Below, piece after piece: positions 3,939-18,190 of a stretch of DNA of 21,025 nt (position 1 is its first letter; every line of letters begins with the position of its first letter). The DNA comes from a virus. The notes beneath the pieces were generated by a model, which saw nothing but the letters and a program-made list of their open reading frames with translations, did no database searches and was not told the DNA's origin. The stretch lies in the IMG/VR virus record IMGVR_UViG_3300030103_003780, positions 1 to 21,025 of that record, one strand, 5' to 3'. The translations under genes were made by a program, and so were the position numbers.

Positions 3939-4811
3939 ATGCCTGAGTATGGAGACAATGTAGTAGTTCCGGTTGTAAGATCCTACGGATCTTCCTATGG
4001 AACATACGGAGGTAATCGCCTTAAAGATTACAAAAGTCCTAAAGACACTGATTTAAATAATAAAGACGCAAAGGACGTAAATGAATTTAAAACGTTTAAT
4101 AGGACGATAAAAGATTATGTTTTAGCAAAACTAGGACACCCAGTAATTGATGTCGAACTTGATGATTTTCAAATTCAAATATGCGTAGACGAAGCTATAT
4201 CTAAATTAGAATATCACGCTCCTGATTGGATGACACAATATGCTGTCTTCAAAACAGAGGCAGGTAAAAATGTTTATGAGCTTCCTCAAGAGATAGCAGA
4301 TAACTTAAACGACTGCTGGTATCGAAGAGACTTTTTTAAGTTTGGTGCAAACCCTGGATCTCTTGAGTTTGATTTTGCGATCATGTTTTTCACAAACACT
4401 GGTCTGTTTAATAACTACAATGTCAGTCAATACTTGCTTATGCAGCAATACCTAAAACAAGTTAAAAATGTTTTAGGTCAGATGTCAACTTGGCAACTTA
4501 TTAACAATAAGTTTCTTCATATTTTCCCTGTGCCTGAAAATAATGATGAAGATGTAATAGTAGAGTTTAGAGCTTTTGATCCCAACACCTTACACCATGC
4601 TTACAAAAGCTGGCTTCAAAGATACACTCTGGCTCTTGCGAAAGAAATTCTAGGCGGCATTAGAGGTAAGTATGCAACTCTTCCTGGCCCTGGTGGTGGG
4701 GCTAGACTAAACGGGGCTGAACTCACGGGTCAAGCTCAACAAGAAAAGCAAGCTCTGATGGAGGAGCTTATGACTGAAATTGAGGGTCCACCTCTGTTTG
4801 ATATCATCTAA
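3939..4811 (+). CDS. 13: Neck protein, gp13-like
   Basis: A 290-residue protein close in size to T4 gp13 (309). Residues ~45-85 (RTIKDYVLAKLGHPVIDVELDDFQIQICVDEAISKLEYH) have the opening pattern of gp13-type neck proteins in marine T4-like phages. The end (AKEILGGIRGKYATLPGPGGG, then QQEKQALMEELM) matches their C-terminus. gp13 helps close the filled head and joins it to the tail. The first ~40 residues are Gly/Tyr/Lys-rich and look like a variable extension. The next gene starts at the stop (TAATG, 4809-4813). A weaker ATG at 3934 opens only a very short frame and is rejected. The gp13-14-15 order agrees with T4, which supports this and the two following calls. Confidence 0.8.
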   Translation: MPEYGDNVVVPVVRSYGSSYGTYGGNRLKDYKSPKDTDLNNKDAKDVNEFKTFNRTIKDYVLAKLGHPVIDVELDDFQIQICVDEAISKLEYHAPDWMTQYAVFKTEAGKNVYELPQEIADNLNDCWYRRDFFKFGANPGSLEFDFAIMFFTNTGLFNNYNVSQYLLMQQYLKQVKNVLGQMSTWQLINNKFLHIFPVPENNDEDVIVEFRAFDPNTLHHAYKSWLQRYTLALAKEILGGIRGKYATLPGPGGGARLNGAELTGQAQQEKQALMEELMTEIEGPPLFDII

Positions 4812-5353
4812 TGAGATATAAGGTAAAGACACCTCCGACAAATCAACCTGATGATCGAAGCTCCAGCTTATCATTATTCAAAAAGAAAAATGATAAGAAT
4901 CTTTTCAACATGGTTGATGCTGAGAACATTAAGATCTCAGGATCTCGTATTAGAGTTTACAAATATGTCGAATCAAACGATATAGATGATATTTATCAAG
5001 AATCTCGTCAGAAGACAATATCTCCTGAGCCTGTACTGGTATGGGGTCACTTTGATCCAAGACCGTTAGAGGAGAACCTGTCTCAGTTTGGTGTTGAGAT
5101 TCAGTATGATCAGGTTTTTAATTTTAATAAATCCTATGTAGAAGGAAGGCTAGGTCGATCACTAACCATTGGTGATGTGTTGGAGCCCGAGTTTCAAGAC
5201 GTTAAGTTTGAAGTCTACGAAGTTCAGGAAGATAGCTTTGAGGCATACGGAGTTTATCACCTATTAGTGCATGCTAAACTTCTTCGAGATACTCAGGACA
5301 TTCACAACGAGTACACTTTTGATCGCCCAGATCAAATAGGAGGTAGAATCTAA
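4811..5353 (+). CDS. 14: Probable neck protein, gp14-like
   Basis: A 180-residue protein, shorter than T4 gp14 (256). The part from residue ~75 on (VLVWGHFDPRPLEENLSQFGVEI, then GRSLTIGDVLEPEFQDVKFEVYEV and a closing YHLLVHAKLLRDTQD) has the shape of the gp14 family: 'F...FGVEI', a 'GD...P' turn and a strand-rich end. The polar N-terminal ~35 residues look disordered. Assignment rests equally on position between the gp13-like and gp15-like genes, joined to both by TAATG overlaps. If correct it binds gp13 at the head-tail junction. It could instead be an unrelated head completion protein. Confidence 0.55.
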   Translation: MRYKVKTPPTNQPDDRSSSLSLFKKKNDKNLFNMVDAENIKISGSRIRVYKYVESNDIDDIYQESRQKTISPEPVLVWGHFDPRPLEENLSQFGVEIQYDQVFNFNKSYVEGRLGRSLTIGDVLEPEFQDVKFEVYEVQEDSFEAYGVYHLLVHAKLLRDTQDIHNEYTFDRPDQIGGRI

Positions 5354-6006
5354 TGTCACGCATTGATGAACTTGCTGTTAGAAATCAAATCGTAAATCTA
5401 ACAGAGCCAAAACTTTTACCTGTGATTGATAACGTTTACAAAGAAAGCTTACGCTCCATGCTGCATGCTTTTGGTAATATGTTTTACATCGATGGTAATG
5501 GTGATAGGATCAAAGTTAACTGCTCATATGGAAACCCCGAGAGAATTGCAGGTAAACTCAAAGCTGACAATACCTTAATTCTACCAATGCTTACCATAGT
5601 TGAGTCTCAGTCAACTCCCGACAGATCAAGAGGCCGCTATCAAAACATTATAAATGAGTCCGTTTGGGATGAGAAAAAACGAAGAGCGCAACGTGTTTTA
5701 AGCTTACCCCCTAGGCCAGTTAACATAACTTATGAAGTTAACATTTGGTGTAAGTATAAGGCTGACATGGATATTCTAAGATCTAATATCTACTCTATGT
5801 TTAGTCCTGATTTACAACTAACTACGAAGTACTCAGATCATAGTAAAGCTTTTATTGAAAGTGAAAGAGATATAGGTAACGCATCTGTAGAAGATCGTGC
5901 TGATAGAATTCTACAAAAATCTATTTCTATAAGTTTAGAAACTTATATTCCGAGTCCAAGATTTCTATTCACTAACACTGGGGAAATAAAGGAGTTCAAT
6001 GTCTAA
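5353..6006 (+). CDS. 15: Tail completion / sheath stabiliser, gp15-like
   Basis: A 217-residue protein; T4 gp15 has 272. Residues ~34-80 (LRSMLHAFGNMFYIDG, IKVNCSYGNPERIAGKL, LILPMLTIVE) follow the gp15 pattern of a 'fg.lF..I' helix, an 'IkVp.sYg....' strand and a '.lP.l.i' strand. The middle (RPVNITYEVNIWCKYKADMDILRSNIYSMFSP) and late part (SISISLETYIPSP) also fit. gp15 caps the tail tube and sheath and connects them to the neck. It starts on a TAATG overlap and ends on another. Gene order 13-14-15 as in T4 strengthens the call. What differs from T4 is what follows: no gp16/gp17 terminase genes. Confidence 0.7.
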   Translation: MSRIDELAVRNQIVNLTEPKLLPVIDNVYKESLRSMLHAFGNMFYIDGNGDRIKVNCSYGNPERIAGKLKADNTLILPMLTIVESQSTPDRSRGRYQNIINESVWDEKKRRAQRVLSLPPRPVNITYEVNIWCKYKADMDILRSNIYSMFSPDLQLTTKYSDHSKAFIESERDIGNASVEDRADRILQKSISISLETYIPSPRFLFTNTGEIKEFNV

Positions 6007-13380: not shown

Positions 13381-13717
13381 AATCTATAACTCCAAGCACT
13401 TGGAGTCTGTAGTTAAGTCTAGTATTGAAGCGAAGCAAAACTCCTATTATTTAATTATAAATTCTTGGGATAAAGTTTGCAATTATTTTGATGATAGGTT
13501 GCCGGTTGACGGTGAGACTAATCTAAATGTAGTGGACATATTCAACGTGCCAAATGCACTTGATGTCATTAAGTCCTCTATAAAGTCTCACAAGGAAACC
13601 ATCTCCACGGCATGTCTATCGAAATACGATCAACTTCCCATGTTGATTGTTATACATAAGTCCTTCCCCAGAGTGGTTAGCTACAATGGGTCAGTAGGGG
13701 CTGAGATTGGTATCTAG
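13346..13717 (+). CDS. Unknown protein, possibly a degenerate thioredoxin fold
   Basis: A 123-residue protein. After a basic start it shows a strand (SYYLIINSWDKVCNYF), a second strand and helix (NLNVVDIFNVPNALDVIKSSI), then QLPMLIVIHKSFPRVVSYNGSVG. That order (strand with a W..VC segment, strand, 'P.L.' strand, '...v..y.G') recalls thioredoxin-like proteins with a cis-proline. The CxxC active site is absent, so if the fold is right the protein is not a redox enzyme. It overlaps the preceding gene by 35 bases, with a purine-rich Shine-Dalgarno-like stretch inside that gene. Its stop shares the bases CTAG with the stop of the convergent sigma factor gene. The fold is a low-confidence inference. 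Confidence 0.55.
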   Translation: MSKKKNSFKRTKIYNSKHLESVVKSSIEAKQNSYYLIINSWDKVCNYFDDRLPVDGETNLNVVDIFNVPNALDVIKSSIKSHKETISTACLSKYDQLPMLIVIHKSFPRVVSYNGSVGAEIGI

Positions 13718-14067
13718 GTAGAGCTTGGGCTTTCAGGAACTCCTCTTCGGTGATTCCTGTATAGCTCAAGTTTTTCATTGTACTTTTTGTTTTTAGAGTA
13801 CAGTAGCCTCAAGTTATTTAAAATAACTGTGGTAAAATAATTGAAAGCTTGCCCAGATCCCCTGTTGAAGTTTTTAAGAACTTTCAGTATAAGTAAGAAG
13901 CACTCCTGCTTTGCTTCTTCATGATCTACATTGAACTTGAATGAAAGCATGAGTCTGTTTATCAGAGTATCAAACATCGCGAAGAGTTCATTTTCATGGG
14001 TTCTATCCCCTAGCTTGAATTCTTGGATCAGATCCTCAAACTTTTCATTATCAATATAGTAACTCAT
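13714..14067 (-). CDS. 55: Late transcription sigma factor, gp55-like
   Basis: A 117-residue protein with the core of sigma region 2 as in T4-like gp55: HEEAKQECFLLILKVLKNFNRGSGQAFNYFTTVILNNLRLLYSKNKKYNEKLELY (residues ~49-103, shown here as overlapping landmarks HEEAKQE, NFNR, FNYFTTVILN, RLLYSKNKKY). gp55 binds host RNA polymerase core and recognises the late promoter -10 box TATAAATA, working with the sliding clamp. It is shorter than T4 gp55 (185). It would read the TAAATA boxes before the structural units in this window. Start and upstream region are shared with the polymerase gene, divergent, with overlapping -10 elements. No Shine-Dalgarno lies at the usual distance. The stop overlaps that of the convergent 13346 gene. 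Confidence 0.75.
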   Translation of the reverse strand: MSYYIDNEKFEDLIQEFKLGDRTHENELFAMFDTLINRLMLSFKFNVDHEEAKQECFLLILKVLKNFNRGSGQAFNYFTTVILNNLRLLYSKNKKYNEKLELYRNHRRGVPESPSST

Positions 14068-14084: not shown

Positions 14085-15119
14085 ATGAATCAACTAAGTT
14101 TCAAGGAGACGAACCCTAAATGTCATGGCTGCCCTGCACTTAGGATGAATCTTCCGACTCATACCATTCTAGACTATGAATATAAGGACGCCCCAGTCGA
14201 TATTCTTTTCATCTCTGACTCTGCTAAGATGTTTGAAGGTGAGTTCACTGCCTTCCGACCTCAGGAGTTTAATGTAATTCAGAGAGAGCTAGCTAGATTC
14301 TCTAAAGAATGGCAAGTTGAGTATACGACTGCGGTGAAATGCCCTAACATTACTTCTGATAACCTAAGCACTGGTATTAAAAAAGCTTGTAAGTCTCACC
14401 TTCACGATACCATTGATCACTACAAGCCAAGACTTGTTTTTGCATGTGGCAAAGTAGCAACAACACTTCTATACGGTAAGGCGAAGGAGGAGAGCAAGAT
14501 CAGGGGTAAGGTCGATACCTTGATTACTGACTCAAAAACTGAGTTTCAAGTAGTGCCGATTATCCACCCATTCCAGGTCGTAGCAGAACCTAAGAACGCC
14601 TATCTCTTCAGAACAGACCTGGAGAACGCTCTTAATAATGAGCTTTTAGGCAAGTCCACAGAGGCTCAGGTAGATCATACTCTGGCTATGAGTATTGGCG
14701 AATTAGATGAGGTGCGAGAGGAGTTCATTGACACTACTCTGGATCTTGCAGTTGACATCGAAACCACCGGCTTAAACTTTCTTGAGGACACCATTCATAC
14801 AGTTTCAATGACTTTGGTTGATAGAGACACGGGTAAACTAGGTAGAACTCTTGTGTTGCCCATTGATCATAAGGAAGCTAGATTAGGGTACAAAGTAAAG
14901 GGCGAGTTCATGAAGTTTGTCTGCAAGGCTATGGCAAACAGAAATAACAGAAAGATCTTGCAGAATGCAGGGTTCGACCTTAAGTTCTTGAAGAGGTATG
15001 GTGTCGATGAAGTTCACAATATTTATGACACAAAACTTCTGCAACACCTTTATAAGGAAGATGTTCCTAAGTCCCTGTCTGATCTCGTTTATTATTATTT
15101 TCCTGAAGAGAAGTTCTAA
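14085..15119 (+). CDS. Family A DNA polymerase part 1: UDG-like Fe-S domain plus proofreading exonuclease
   Basis: A 344-residue protein of two domains. Residues ~10-185 resemble family 4 uracil-DNA glycosylases: CHGC (C13, C16), TTAVKCPN (C86), KKACKSHL (C102), PRLVFACGKVATTLL and VVPIIHP (H161). The four cysteines have the spacing of the Fe-S cluster of that family. The usual GEAPG motif is replaced by SDSAK, so glycosylase activity is doubtful. Residues ~218-344 are a DnaQ-type 3'-5' exonuclease as in PolA: LAVDIETTGL (D224, E226) and LQNAGFDLKFL (D298). The last exonuclease motif lies in the next reading frame. Fusion of a UDG-like domain to phage PolA is known, for example in SPO1-like phages. 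It ends in TAATG shared with part 2. Confidence 0.85.
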   Translation: MNQLSFKETNPKCHGCPALRMNLPTHTILDYEYKDAPVDILFISDSAKMFEGEFTAFRPQEFNVIQRELARFSKEWQVEYTTAVKCPNITSDNLSTGIKKACKSHLHDTIDHYKPRLVFACGKVATTLLYGKAKEESKIRGKVDTLITDSKTEFQVVPIIHPFQVVAEPKNAYLFRTDLENALNNELLGKSTEAQVDHTLAMSIGELDEVREEFIDTTLDLAVDIETTGLNFLEDTIHTVSMTLVDRDTGKLGRTLVLPIDHKEARLGYKVKGEFMKFVCKAMANRNNRKILQNAGFDLKFLKRYGVDEVHNIYDTKLLQHLYKEDVPKSLSDLVYYYFPEEKF

Positions 15120-15643
15120 TGCTTACAGTTGAGGGTAAGAAGTTTGACTGGAAAAACATTCCCCTTATTCAATGTGTTGAGGGTAATGCAAAGGACACCT
15201 ACGCTACTGCCAAGGTATATGTAAAACTACTTGAAGAGGTCCGTCAGAAGAATCTTGAGCATCTATACGAGAAGCTAATCGCACCTCTGACAGTTGCTTT
15301 CCGTGATATGGAGTTTGAGGGTTTGTTGATTGATGAGGATAAGCTCAACGAATTGGACCAGCAACTTCAAGCCAAGCTCAAACTGGCAGACATTGCCTTG
15401 CGAGAAGCTGCTGGTTTGGAGGAGGATGCTAACCTCAACTCAACTAATCAACTTGTAAAGATTATCTATTCATTCGAGAAAAATGATGAAGGCGAGTGGA
15501 TTCAGGTTGACGATTTCGGCCTTGGATTGTATCCTTTCGAGTTCACTAAGAAGGGTGCTCCCTCTACTAATGAAGAAACGCTAACCAAGGTCAAGGCCAT
15601 GGTCGAAGAAGAGTTCACAGCAAGAGGTTTGAAGGTTGAATAA
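15119..15643 (+). CDS. Family A DNA polymerase part 2: exonuclease end and linker to the polymerase domain
   Basis: A 174-residue segment in a different frame. Residues ~18-40 (QCVEGNAKDTYATAKVYVKLL) are the third exonuclease motif with the metal-binding D26; the tyrosine usually four residues before it is glycine. Residues ~45-75 (LYEKLIAPLTVAFRDMEFEGLLID) are the standard PolA segment between exonuclease and thumb ('e..l.p.L..mE..Gi.id'). The end (NSTNQLVKIIYS, KGAPSTNEETL) is the thumb region that lines up primer-template. It starts on the TAATG of part 1. No slippery heptamer is visible in the overlap, so reinitiation is the simplest reading. A sequencing indel cannot be excluded. Confidence 0.8.
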   Translation: MLTVEGKKFDWKNIPLIQCVEGNAKDTYATAKVYVKLLEEVRQKNLEHLYEKLIAPLTVAFRDMEFEGLLIDEDKLNELDQQLQAKLKLADIALREAAGLEEDANLNSTNQLVKIIYSFEKNDEGEWIQVDDFGLGLYPFEFTKKGAPSTNEETLTKVKAMVEEEFTARGLKVE

Positions 15644-16700
15644 CGAAGAGGTAAGTATTGCTAAGGCAGTTCTGCATAATATGTCTCATGACAAGCTAAA
15701 AGCTGCTAAGAAGTTTTTTGATCGCTTTTCAGAGTACAAGAAGCTAACCAAACTGCACTCTGTGTATATTGAGGGTGCTCGCACTGCATTACAGAATACC
15801 GGCAACAGTCGAATGTATGTTAAGTATAACATCGACGGTACCGTTACGGGTCGCATCTCAAACTCGGGTGCCAATGTTGGTAGGAAAAAGACTGACAAGA
15901 TTGGCGTGTCCTTTCACACTCTACCTCGGGAATCGCTTGACGTAAACATTCGTGATTACGTAGTAGCCCCAGAGGGTCATGACTTTATCACGATTGACAT
16001 GAAGGCTATGGAGCTACGAGTGCTTGCTCATGTTGCTAATGAGGAGAATATGATTCACGCTTTTAGGTCTGGCGTTGATCTGCACAGCTACTCTGCTGGA
16101 TTGACCTTTAATAAGGACCCCAAGGATGTGAGCAAACTTGAAAGACAGATCGCAAAGGAAGTGAGCTTCCTAACAGTCTATGGGGGGACTGCATATACTC
16201 TTGCTTCAAAGCGTAATATTCCTGAGGATCGCGCTGAGGAGATTATCAATAGTTGGCTAGCGGCTTTCCCAGGTGTAGGCCGCTACATGAACACTATTGA
16301 TGAATACATTAAACAGTTTGGTTACGCAAAGACTATCTTTGGTCGCTATCGTCACCTGCCTAATGTCCGATCACCTTTTAAGGGTGTGCGTCGTGAGGCG
16401 TTTCGACAGGGTCTAAACTTTACAATTCAATCCGCCGCTAGTGACATTCTACTTTGCGGGATGCTAGGCGTAATTGAAAAGCTCAAAGGCATGAAGGCTA
16501 AAGTTGTAGCCACGGTTCACGACTCAATTGAACTCATAGCTCCTAAGGAGGAAACTAGAAAGGTTGTTGAGATTGTTAGTGACGAGCTTGAGAACTATCA
16601 TTACCTGAAAGACAACTTCAACATTCATTTAAAAGTTCCTCTTGGTGTGGATGTTGAGGTTGGCTCTAGCTTTGGTAACGGTGTTGAGTATGAACTCTAA
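15636..16700 (+). CDS. Family A DNA polymerase part 3: palm and fingers
   Basis: A 354-residue polymerase domain. Visible motifs: GTVTGRISNS (68-77); motif A DMKAMELRVLAH with D121, E126 and R128; motif B ERQIAKEVSFLTVYGG with R170, K174, F178 and Y182 at the canonical four-residue spacing; motif C TVHDSIEL with H295 and D296. The catalytic aspartates D121 and D296 are present; HDS replaces HDE. The likely start is TTG 15636, with GAGG 9 bases upstream and an in-frame TGA just before it. It overlaps part 2 by 8 bases. ATG 15681 is an alternative that would lose 15 residues. The polymerase should be active if assembled with parts 1 and 2. T4-like phages normally carry a family B enzyme instead. 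Confidence 0.9.
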   Translation: MNNEEVSIAKAVLHNMSHDKLKAAKKFFDRFSEYKKLTKLHSVYIEGARTALQNTGNSRMYVKYNIDGTVTGRISNSGANVGRKKTDKIGVSFHTLPRESLDVNIRDYVVAPEGHDFITIDMKAMELRVLAHVANEENMIHAFRSGVDLHSYSAGLTFNKDPKDVSKLERQIAKEVSFLTVYGGTAYTLASKRNIPEDRAEEIINSWLAAFPGVGRYMNTIDEYIKQFGYAKTIFGRYRHLPNVRSPFKGVRREAFRQGLNFTIQSAASDILLCGMLGVIEKLKGMKAKVVATVHDSIELIAPKEETRKVVEIVSDELENYHYLKDNFNIHLKVPLGVDVEVGSSFGNGVEYEL

Positions 16701-18190
16701 CGACCAAGATAATCCATTACACCCATCCATTTCGGTGCCGTGGCTCTAGGTTGTGTTTGCCACTCAAGCAATCCAAATGAACCATACCTTCCATGGTCTC
16801 CTGTTGCTCTATAGAGCATAAACAAGTCTCCACCCTCACCAAACCAACGATCTAAATCGTTGTAATATAACTGACGCATTCCTGCGTTCCTGTTAGCCTG
16901 TACAAATAAGTTTGTAAGGGTTTGATTATTTTGTGCGGATCCTACTCCGACTAAGTGTTGACCACCTTCGTAAGCTAATAGGTGTAAACCCCTTTGAGTG
17001 GTGTCAATCCTGTTCTGCCTTGTGTATACATTGTGATTGTCATCAAGGTCTAACTGACAGAGCGATAGAATGTGAGAAACCGAGAACGTAGAAGCTTGTG
17101 GATAATTACTAGGATTACCTAAGGATCCTCCAAAATAAGGAGCGACTGCAAAAGCATCTGCATTCTCATAGGCATTCTGCCAATCCATAATTTGTCTATT
17201 TACCCAGGGGTTGACGCTTTGTCCCGCCAATACGCGAACAAGTCTTCTTTGATCTAATGGGTTGTAAATGTTAGAGAATAGATTAAACACTTCAACTGAT
17301 CTTTGAGAGTAGTAGCGCCAACCAGCATGCCATGGTTGAGGGTGCAATCCTAATGCTGTTCCTTCGTTCTGAGCATACTGACATTGATCAAAGATACCAT
17401 TCCAAACTTCGTTGCTGTATTCCAAATAAATTGTAAGTGACGGATCTAAAACTATGCGACATAGAAGTGCAAGATACTGAACATATAAGTCGTTTGCCAT
17501 GTGAGGCACACAGATCCACATGTGCTTTTTTGTTTTGTTGCACAGGTCAATCATGTAAAGAGGGTGAACTCCCTCCGACGTAGCCTGAGTATAATTAAAA
17601 AAGTTAGTAGCTTCATACCAATGGATCACAGGGTTATCGTTTGTCCTACCCCAGTTCATAAATCTGATAGTATCGAAAGGCTCTAGGCTCTTCATAAAAT
17701 CAGGGTGAAAGATCCTGTTGGAGTTGTCATATCCTGGCAAGTACACTCTAATATTTTCAATGGGCTGCACAATGTCGGTAATTCTAAGAGTGAAATACCC
17801 GTCGCTAGGAACCTGTAAATTTATTTTAATGTGACCTGGATTCTGATCTACGATTGTAACAGATCCGTTACCACCTGCTAAAGGCTTCAGAGTTCCGATA
17901 CCATCGTAACGAATGTTATAGATACCATCGGGGTAATTAGGAGAACCATCGGAAAAGATGATAGATTCAATCCACTGATTAGGCTCAAGACTTTGAGGCC
18001 ACCCCAAATCGTCCGTATTAATTGCTGGTCCTGCACCCCATGAGAATGGACTAGCTTGATGACTTACCCATTCGCGAGAGCTTTTGAAAGCATCTACAAA
18101 AGGAGTTTGTTGGTGCCAATCAGTGACTGTTTCTAGATTTACACCCACGGGTCCCTGTGGGGCAAAGGCGAGTAGTGCTGCAAGTAACAT
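16697..18190 (-). CDS. Glycoside-hydrolase-like protein, possible clan GH-A, possibly secreted
   Basis: A 497-residue protein. It opens with an apolar stretch (MLLAALLAFA) that could be a short signal peptide, although it lacks the usual positive residues. Residues ~70-150 look like a beta-sandwich. From ~165 a TIM-barrel-like part follows with SLEPFDTIRFMNWGRTN, then IYLEYSNEVWNG (N260-E261, the Asn-Glu pair typical of a clan GH-A acid/base) and LLAYEGGQHLVG (E408, a plausible nucleophile). Similar sequences are often annotated as cellulose-binding or glycosyl hydrolase in environmental bacteria. The substrate is unknown; a host capsule, exopolysaccharide or algal glycan is possible. Its stop shares CTAA with the convergent polymerase stop. 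A perfect inverted repeat covers its start. Confidence 0.7.
   Translation of the reverse strand: MLLAALLAFAPQGPVGVNLETVTDWHQQTPFVDAFKSSREWVSHQASPFSWGAGPAINTDDLGWPQSLEPNQWIESIIFSDGSPNYPDGIYNIRYDGIGTLKPLAGGNGSVTIVDQNPGHIKINLQVPSDGYFTLRITDIVQPIENIRVYLPGYDNSNRIFHPDFMKSLEPFDTIRFMNWGRTNDNPVIHWYEATNFFNYTQATSEGVHPLYMIDLCNKTKKHMWICVPHMANDLYVQYLALLCRIVLDPSLTIYLEYSNEVWNGIFDQCQYAQNEGTALGLHPQPWHAGWRYYSQRSVEVFNLFSNIYNPLDQRRLVRVLAGQSVNPWVNRQIMDWQNAYENADAFAVAPYFGGSLGNPSNYPQASTFSVSHILSLCQLDLDDNHNVYTRQNRIDTTQRGLHLLAYEGGQHLVGVGSAQNNQTLTNLFVQANRNAGMRQLYYNDLDRWFGEGGDLFMLYRATGDHGRYGSFGLLEWQTQPRATAPKWMGVMDYLGR

Follow-up and report, generated by a model that had tools for sequence, protein, structure and literature searches.

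Known replicative DNA polymerases of family A are single chains and rarely occur in two pieces. Here we describe a viral DNA of 21,025 nucleotides (IMG/VR record IMGVR_UViG_3300030103_003780, positions 1 to 21,025; hereafter, the window) in which the parts of such an enzyme are distributed over three separate genes, designated A, B and C. The breaks between the genes are conserved among relatives, as are the catalytic residues, and all three genes are under purifying selection. Taken together, the products of A, B and C correspond to one protein with a uracil-DNA glycosylase (UDG)-like domain, a 3'-5' exonuclease and a family A polymerase, in the correct order. An earlier reading of the DNA made without database searches (the sequence-only reading) had proposed a complete PolA-like enzyme with its domains in order, and matches to Pfam, the phage protein family phrog_17 and the Klenow fragment agree with it. 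Its coordinates for the three frames and both joins were all correct when the sequence was re-read.

All three genes lie on the + strand. Gene A (14085..15119; 344 amino acids [aa]) encodes a UDG-like iron-sulfur (Fe-S) domain and, after it, the initial part of the PolA 3'-5' exonuclease, as judged by Pfam, conserved residues and a predicted structure. Gene B (15119..15643; 174 aa) provides the last part of the exonuclease, including the exo III aspartate D26, and the first part of the thumb (Klenow alignment, phrog_17 and predicted structure). Gene C (15636..16700; 354 aa) carries the remaining thumb, the palm and the fingers, and includes motifs A, B and C (PF00476, invariant catalytic residues and PolA alignment). 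At join 1, the sequence TAATG (15117..15121, + strand) holds the stop codon of A (TAA, 15117-15119) and the start codon of B (ATG, 15119), which share one base. At join 2 (15636..15643, + strand), the end of B, with its TAA stop codon at 15641-15643, overlaps by 8 bases the start of C, a TTG at 15636.

The positions of both breaks were mapped onto solved structures, where Klenow residue numbers equal the chain index plus 323, as verified on the exo III motif. Break 1 separates exo II from exo III of the exonuclease, and break 2 interrupts the thumb. The three proteins match phrog_17, which represents one phage polymerase family, consecutively (A to positions 547-785, B to 796-920 and C to 929-1237), so that B falls exactly between A and C. 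Profiles of the three genes align with Klenow in the same order, with A covering residues 330-451, B covering 482-617 (E = 9e-16) and C starting from residue 625; C also aligns with the PolA enzymes Bst and Taq. The sequence-only reading had placed its second break in the thumb region, as the B and C alignments bear out.

The exonuclease site is divided between two genes. The sequence-only reading had assigned D224, E226 and D298 to A and the aspartate of the third motif, D26, to B, and the latter does align with Klenow D501. The codon for D26 is at 15194..15196 (+ strand), and this fourth acidic residue is invariant in 58 sequences, while D224 and E226 of exo I and D298 of exo II are invariant in 55 diverse sequences. 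Thus, all four acidic metal ligands of a PolA-type (DEDDy) exonuclease are present, three from A and one from B. Without a single site to which both A and B contribute, invariance in the two genes flanking join 1 is difficult to account for. The sequence-only reading did not mention two features: the beginning of A, discussed below, and replacement of the exo III tyrosine by glycine. This tyrosine, four residues before the last aspartate of the DEDDy set, is replaced by glycine in each of the 13 split sequences that were compared, and all four unsplit sequences in the comparison retain it. In the window, the glycine is G22 of B (15182-15184), and it is invariant in the same 58 sequences.

Gene C carries all of the polymerase motifs, and B supplements its thumb. 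The DNA_pol_A domain PF00476 is nearly complete in C (243 bits versus a cut-off of 34), and residues D121, R170, K174, F178, Y182, H295 and D296 are invariant; motifs A, B and C are present with the two catalytic aspartates. Klenow alignments indicate that C is without part of the thumb and that the missing part is supplied by B, which also weakly matches PF00476 positions 2-70. The predicted structure of B (predicted local distance difference test score, pLDDT, of 84.8) matched PolA chains with modest scores; in Foldseek these matches had E values of at least 0.007 and probability 1.00, and we use the list to claim similarity to PolA only. About as many residues lie across join 1 in the split group (39-46) as in unsplit sequences (35-47). 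Across join 2, however, there are 65-77 residues in the split group versus 28-41 in unsplit sequences. We interpret these extra tails as a probable interface between subunits.

Pfam detects both a UDG domain (PF03167) and an exonuclease domain (PF01612) in A, and beyond the Klenow match already noted, the A profile aligns with family 4 UDGs. The predicted structure (pLDDT 89.9) correspondingly matches a family 4 UDG and a PolA exonuclease, with Foldseek matches for the UDG fold to 4zbx and 1ui0. The family-4-UDG-like domain, delimited by the match to 4zbx and by alignments, covers approximately residues 13-186 (14121..14642, + strand) and contains four cysteines, C13, C16, C86 and C102, that are unchanged across 55 sequences. 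Alignments reveal no family 4 UDG motif A, GE(A/G)PG, in A, which has an SDS-type sequence in its place. Because the GEAPG motif is lost while the four cysteines are retained, uracil-excision activity is doubtful, and the domain possibly has a structural rather than an enzymatic role.

To evaluate conservation of the split, relatives were collected from scans of IMG/VR and every coding-strand open frame was searched using the A, B and C profiles. This yielded 123 distinct complete loci, including the window. Relatives were drawn from the best 80 loci of each scan; the last scan gave approximately 290 weaker matches more, some of which had been met in earlier scans. Among representatives, C proteins are at least 44% identical, and identity in B falls to 31%. 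In all 123 loci, A, B and C occupy three separate frames. The profile search did not find A and B, or B and C, within one frame in any of them, nor did it find the usual PolA form, in which one polypeptide comprises exonuclease, thumb and palm; the widening viral scans revealed no unsplit or two-piece intermediate among the best 80 loci per scan. The profile test is able to detect an unsplit gene, since four cultured outgroup phages give single frames: LysYB1, ctfzr933 and RcMenchie have the A, B and C profiles in one frame, and Shrew has those of A and C in one frame. Single genes are also annotated in these phages. The sequence-only reading had singled out close relatives with an uninterrupted gene as one finding that would overturn it, and none is present among the 123 loci. 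Median dN/dS values of 0.039 for A, 0.031 for B and 0.023 for C indicate strong purifying selection. Gene decay is ruled out by these low values together with conservation of the split. Cultured phages had no similarity to the window at the DNA level, and none gave a tblastn match for B. One locus (L253:5569-5984) has a B gene that an early stop interrupts and that lacks approximately 20 residues; we treated this as a contig defect.

The arrangement at the joins varies among the 123 loci. At join 1, the one-base overlap of stop and start seen in the window is kept in 84 loci; one locus (L031) has a one-base gap and an altered A-to-B frame relation, one (L094) has a 17-base overlap, and the remaining 37 have inserts of 184-2403 bases, many of which contain an open reading frame (ORF) on the opposite strand. 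The inserts are mutually unrelated. Examples are an HNH endonuclease (L093:4853-5470), a 91-residue membrane-like protein that also occurs in other loci (L131:3219-3494) and a lipoprotein-like ORF on the opposite strand (L126:4990-5484). Locus L116 has a 2-oxoglutarate (2OG) oxygenase gene between A and B (4274-4831) and, in addition, a gene of 200 residues between B and C (5384-5986). On a quick tree of C, the presence of an insert at join 1 changes, by gain or loss, at least 15 times. Join 1 is a recurrent landing site for unrelated genes. At join 2, the offset is -8 in 69 loci and otherwise ranges from -44 to +16, with one locus at 585 bases, and the B-to-C frame relation is +1 in 105 loci, +2 in 16 and 0 in two.

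Translation start signals are retained as well. B starts with ATG or GTG in every locus, and C with GTG, ATG or TTG. In the window, a purine-rich, Shine-Dalgarno-like sequence, GAAGAGAAG, is located upstream of the B start (15105..15113, + strand), and a Shine-Dalgarno-like AGAGG that is retained in near relatives is upstream of the C start (15623..15627, + strand). Group-wide energies of pairing with the anti-Shine-Dalgarno sequence are -4.4 at the B start and -5.8 at the C start, versus -2.6 in internal control windows. Also, many loci with an insert have a TATATAG-like motif directly before the start of B, for example L096 (B at 5501) and L176 (B at 5517). This motif may act as a promoter, either of B or of the divergent gene.

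The sequence-only reading had offered three explanations: three polypeptides that assemble, programmed frameshifting, or sequencing indels. Many samples, with more than 120 distinct loci among them, show the same breaks, as does a contig from a single-cell genome, and indels from sequencing or assembly in an ordinary single gene, to which only the initial impression of three frames had pointed, are vanishingly improbable. Programmed frameshifting that yields a single protein, with a -1 shift at join 1 and a +1 shift at join 2, would fit frames that touch or overlap and a frame relation shared by many relatives. Moreover, prfB-type +1 frameshift sites have a Shine-Dalgarno-like sequence upstream, which the AGAGG before join 2 resembles. 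However, a frameshift cannot bridge A and B across an intervening gene, often one on the opposite strand, as in the 37 insert-bearing loci, and L116 presents the same obstacle between B and C. The frame relation also differs at join 1 (in L031) and at join 2 (+1, +2 or 0), start codons are retained at both joins, and the 123 loci did not exhibit the fixed frame relation and conserved recoding site of a programmed-frameshift gene. We therefore judge frameshifting to be very unlikely. Ligation of the polypeptides after translation by split inteins, or trans-splicing of the messages, would be compatible with separate genes. Yet in insert-free loci neighboring frames touch or share a few bases, and the profiles extend to the ends of A and B, so that no intein or intron sequence is possible at the joins, and we rate such mechanisms as exceedingly unlikely.

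A different alternative accepts three polypeptides but no joint enzyme: C alone would be a polymerase without an exonuclease, and A and B would be leftovers or have another role. Such a scheme would fit the presence of every polymerase motif in C, the loss of the exo III tyrosine and a UDG-like domain without its usual motif A. It is unlikely, given the strong purifying selection on A and B, the retention in 55-58 diverse sequences of four exonuclease ligands divided between A and B, and the part of the thumb that C lacks and B provides.

We conclude that A, B and C very probably specify three polypeptides that assemble into one family A polymerase with a 3'-5' exonuclease, likely a replicative enzyme, where assembly, proofreading activity and replicative role are what we infer. 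The three proteins would be translated separately, whether coupled or independently, and would fold together. The exonuclease would have a composite metal site to which A contributes three acidic residues and B the fourth; B and C would jointly build the thumb, and the whole polymerase active site would reside in C. The assembled enzyme would then serve as the replicative polymerase of a phage lineage with T4-like capsid genes. Some points weigh against this interpretation. A, B and C are known here only from their genes; B, which was modelled alone, has a low predicted template-modelling score (pTM, 0.53); and with glycine in place of the exo III tyrosine throughout the split group, the strength of proofreading is uncertain, and the exonuclease could be weak or altered.

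The group is a widespread one of uncultured phages with T4-like capsid genes. In the window itself, a T4-type major head protein (phrog_138), a tail sheath and a tail tube are encoded. A first search of sequenced genomes found no member of the group, and a wider profile then found one, a contig of 130,604 bases (QCKN01000003.1; L294) that has the split polymerase and belongs to the Prochlorococcus single-cell genome AG-409-P03. This member indicates a marine setting, and Prochlorococcus as a host is only suggestive from one single-cell genome. The contig encodes a gp23-type capsid protein, a portal (gp20) and a protease (gp21), which match phrog_138, phrog_213 and phrog_207, respectively, along with a primase, helicases, SSB, ribonucleotide reductase and SbcC/D-like proteins. 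Each of 11 longer records from the group has exactly one PF00476 match. Searches for the family B polymerase gp43, run with positive controls on records that may be incomplete, found PF00136 in none of these 11 records and PF03104 in none of the six tested for it. Given one PolA and no family B polymerase, the three-piece enzyme probably takes the place of gp43. A search for the gp45 sliding clamp gave no match in the group and none in control genomes either. Somewhat better than even, in our estimation, are the chances of a fuller proposal: an obligate three-subunit family A replicase that has replaced the family B polymerase in a large lineage of these uncultured phages, has a metal site and a thumb each formed by two polypeptides, uses new tails at the B/C join as an interface, and has kept its split over a deep evolutionary span.

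Among the closest known counterparts are the UDG-exonuclease-PolA chains of the SPO1 type (SPO1 gp31, Lysinibacillus LysYB1, Rhodobacter RcMenchie and ctfzr933), which have the same domain order and align over nearly their full length. These are encoded by one gene of approximately 800-930 aa, interrupted by an intron in SPO1, whereas three genes are used here. Rhodothermus phage RM378, which the sequence-only reading had cited, reportedly separates exonuclease and polymerase into two genes, and it likewise has a T4-like capsid. However, its exonuclease-bearing polymerase protein matches the family B domain PF03104, not family A, and the RM378 gene that bears the label 'similar to DNA polymerase I' encodes a 5'-3' exonuclease. 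RM378 was thus rejected as a homologous case and is a functional parallel only.

Two-piece natural polymerase splits are already known (PMC10580990, PMC7824862). The OM43 phages MEP401 and MEP402 are likewise marine, and most members of their group divide the family A polymerase between genes, but they have two ORFs with a break within the polymerase domain and a small ORF between, for which the authors consider an intron (PMC10580990). The split PolIII alpha subunit of jumbo phages similarly consists of stand-alone parts that are expected to reconstitute, but it belongs to another polymerase family and is in two parts encoded by distant genes (PMC7824862). The divPolA1 proteins of large phages are also divergent family A polymerases, but they are single chains that have lost all of the exonuclease aspartates and accompany a regular DNA polymerase (PMC11348598). 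A literature search of incomplete coverage found no published case of a three-piece family A polymerase with a composite exonuclease site. In a broad phage lineage, evolution has apparently split the proofreading site as well as the thumb and has maintained the division. Should the three proteins assemble, they would provide split polymerases with a natural template and allow the survival of catalytic sites through gene fission to be tested. In practice, searches that demand a full-length PolA miss or misname genes A, B and C.

Some neighboring genes were also noted. The AG-409-P03 contig further carries sugar-nucleotide, aminotransferase, radical-SAM and TPP-enzyme genes. Adjoining A in the window is a gene on the - strand (13714-14067) for a 117-residue protein whose weak match to sigma-70 region 2 is just under the cut-off; it occupies the same place in two other loci (L078 and L082). 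On the other side of the polymerase genes, a 497-residue protein (16697-18190, - strand) has no Pfam or PHROG match and by eye appears glycoside-hydrolase-like or fiber-like.
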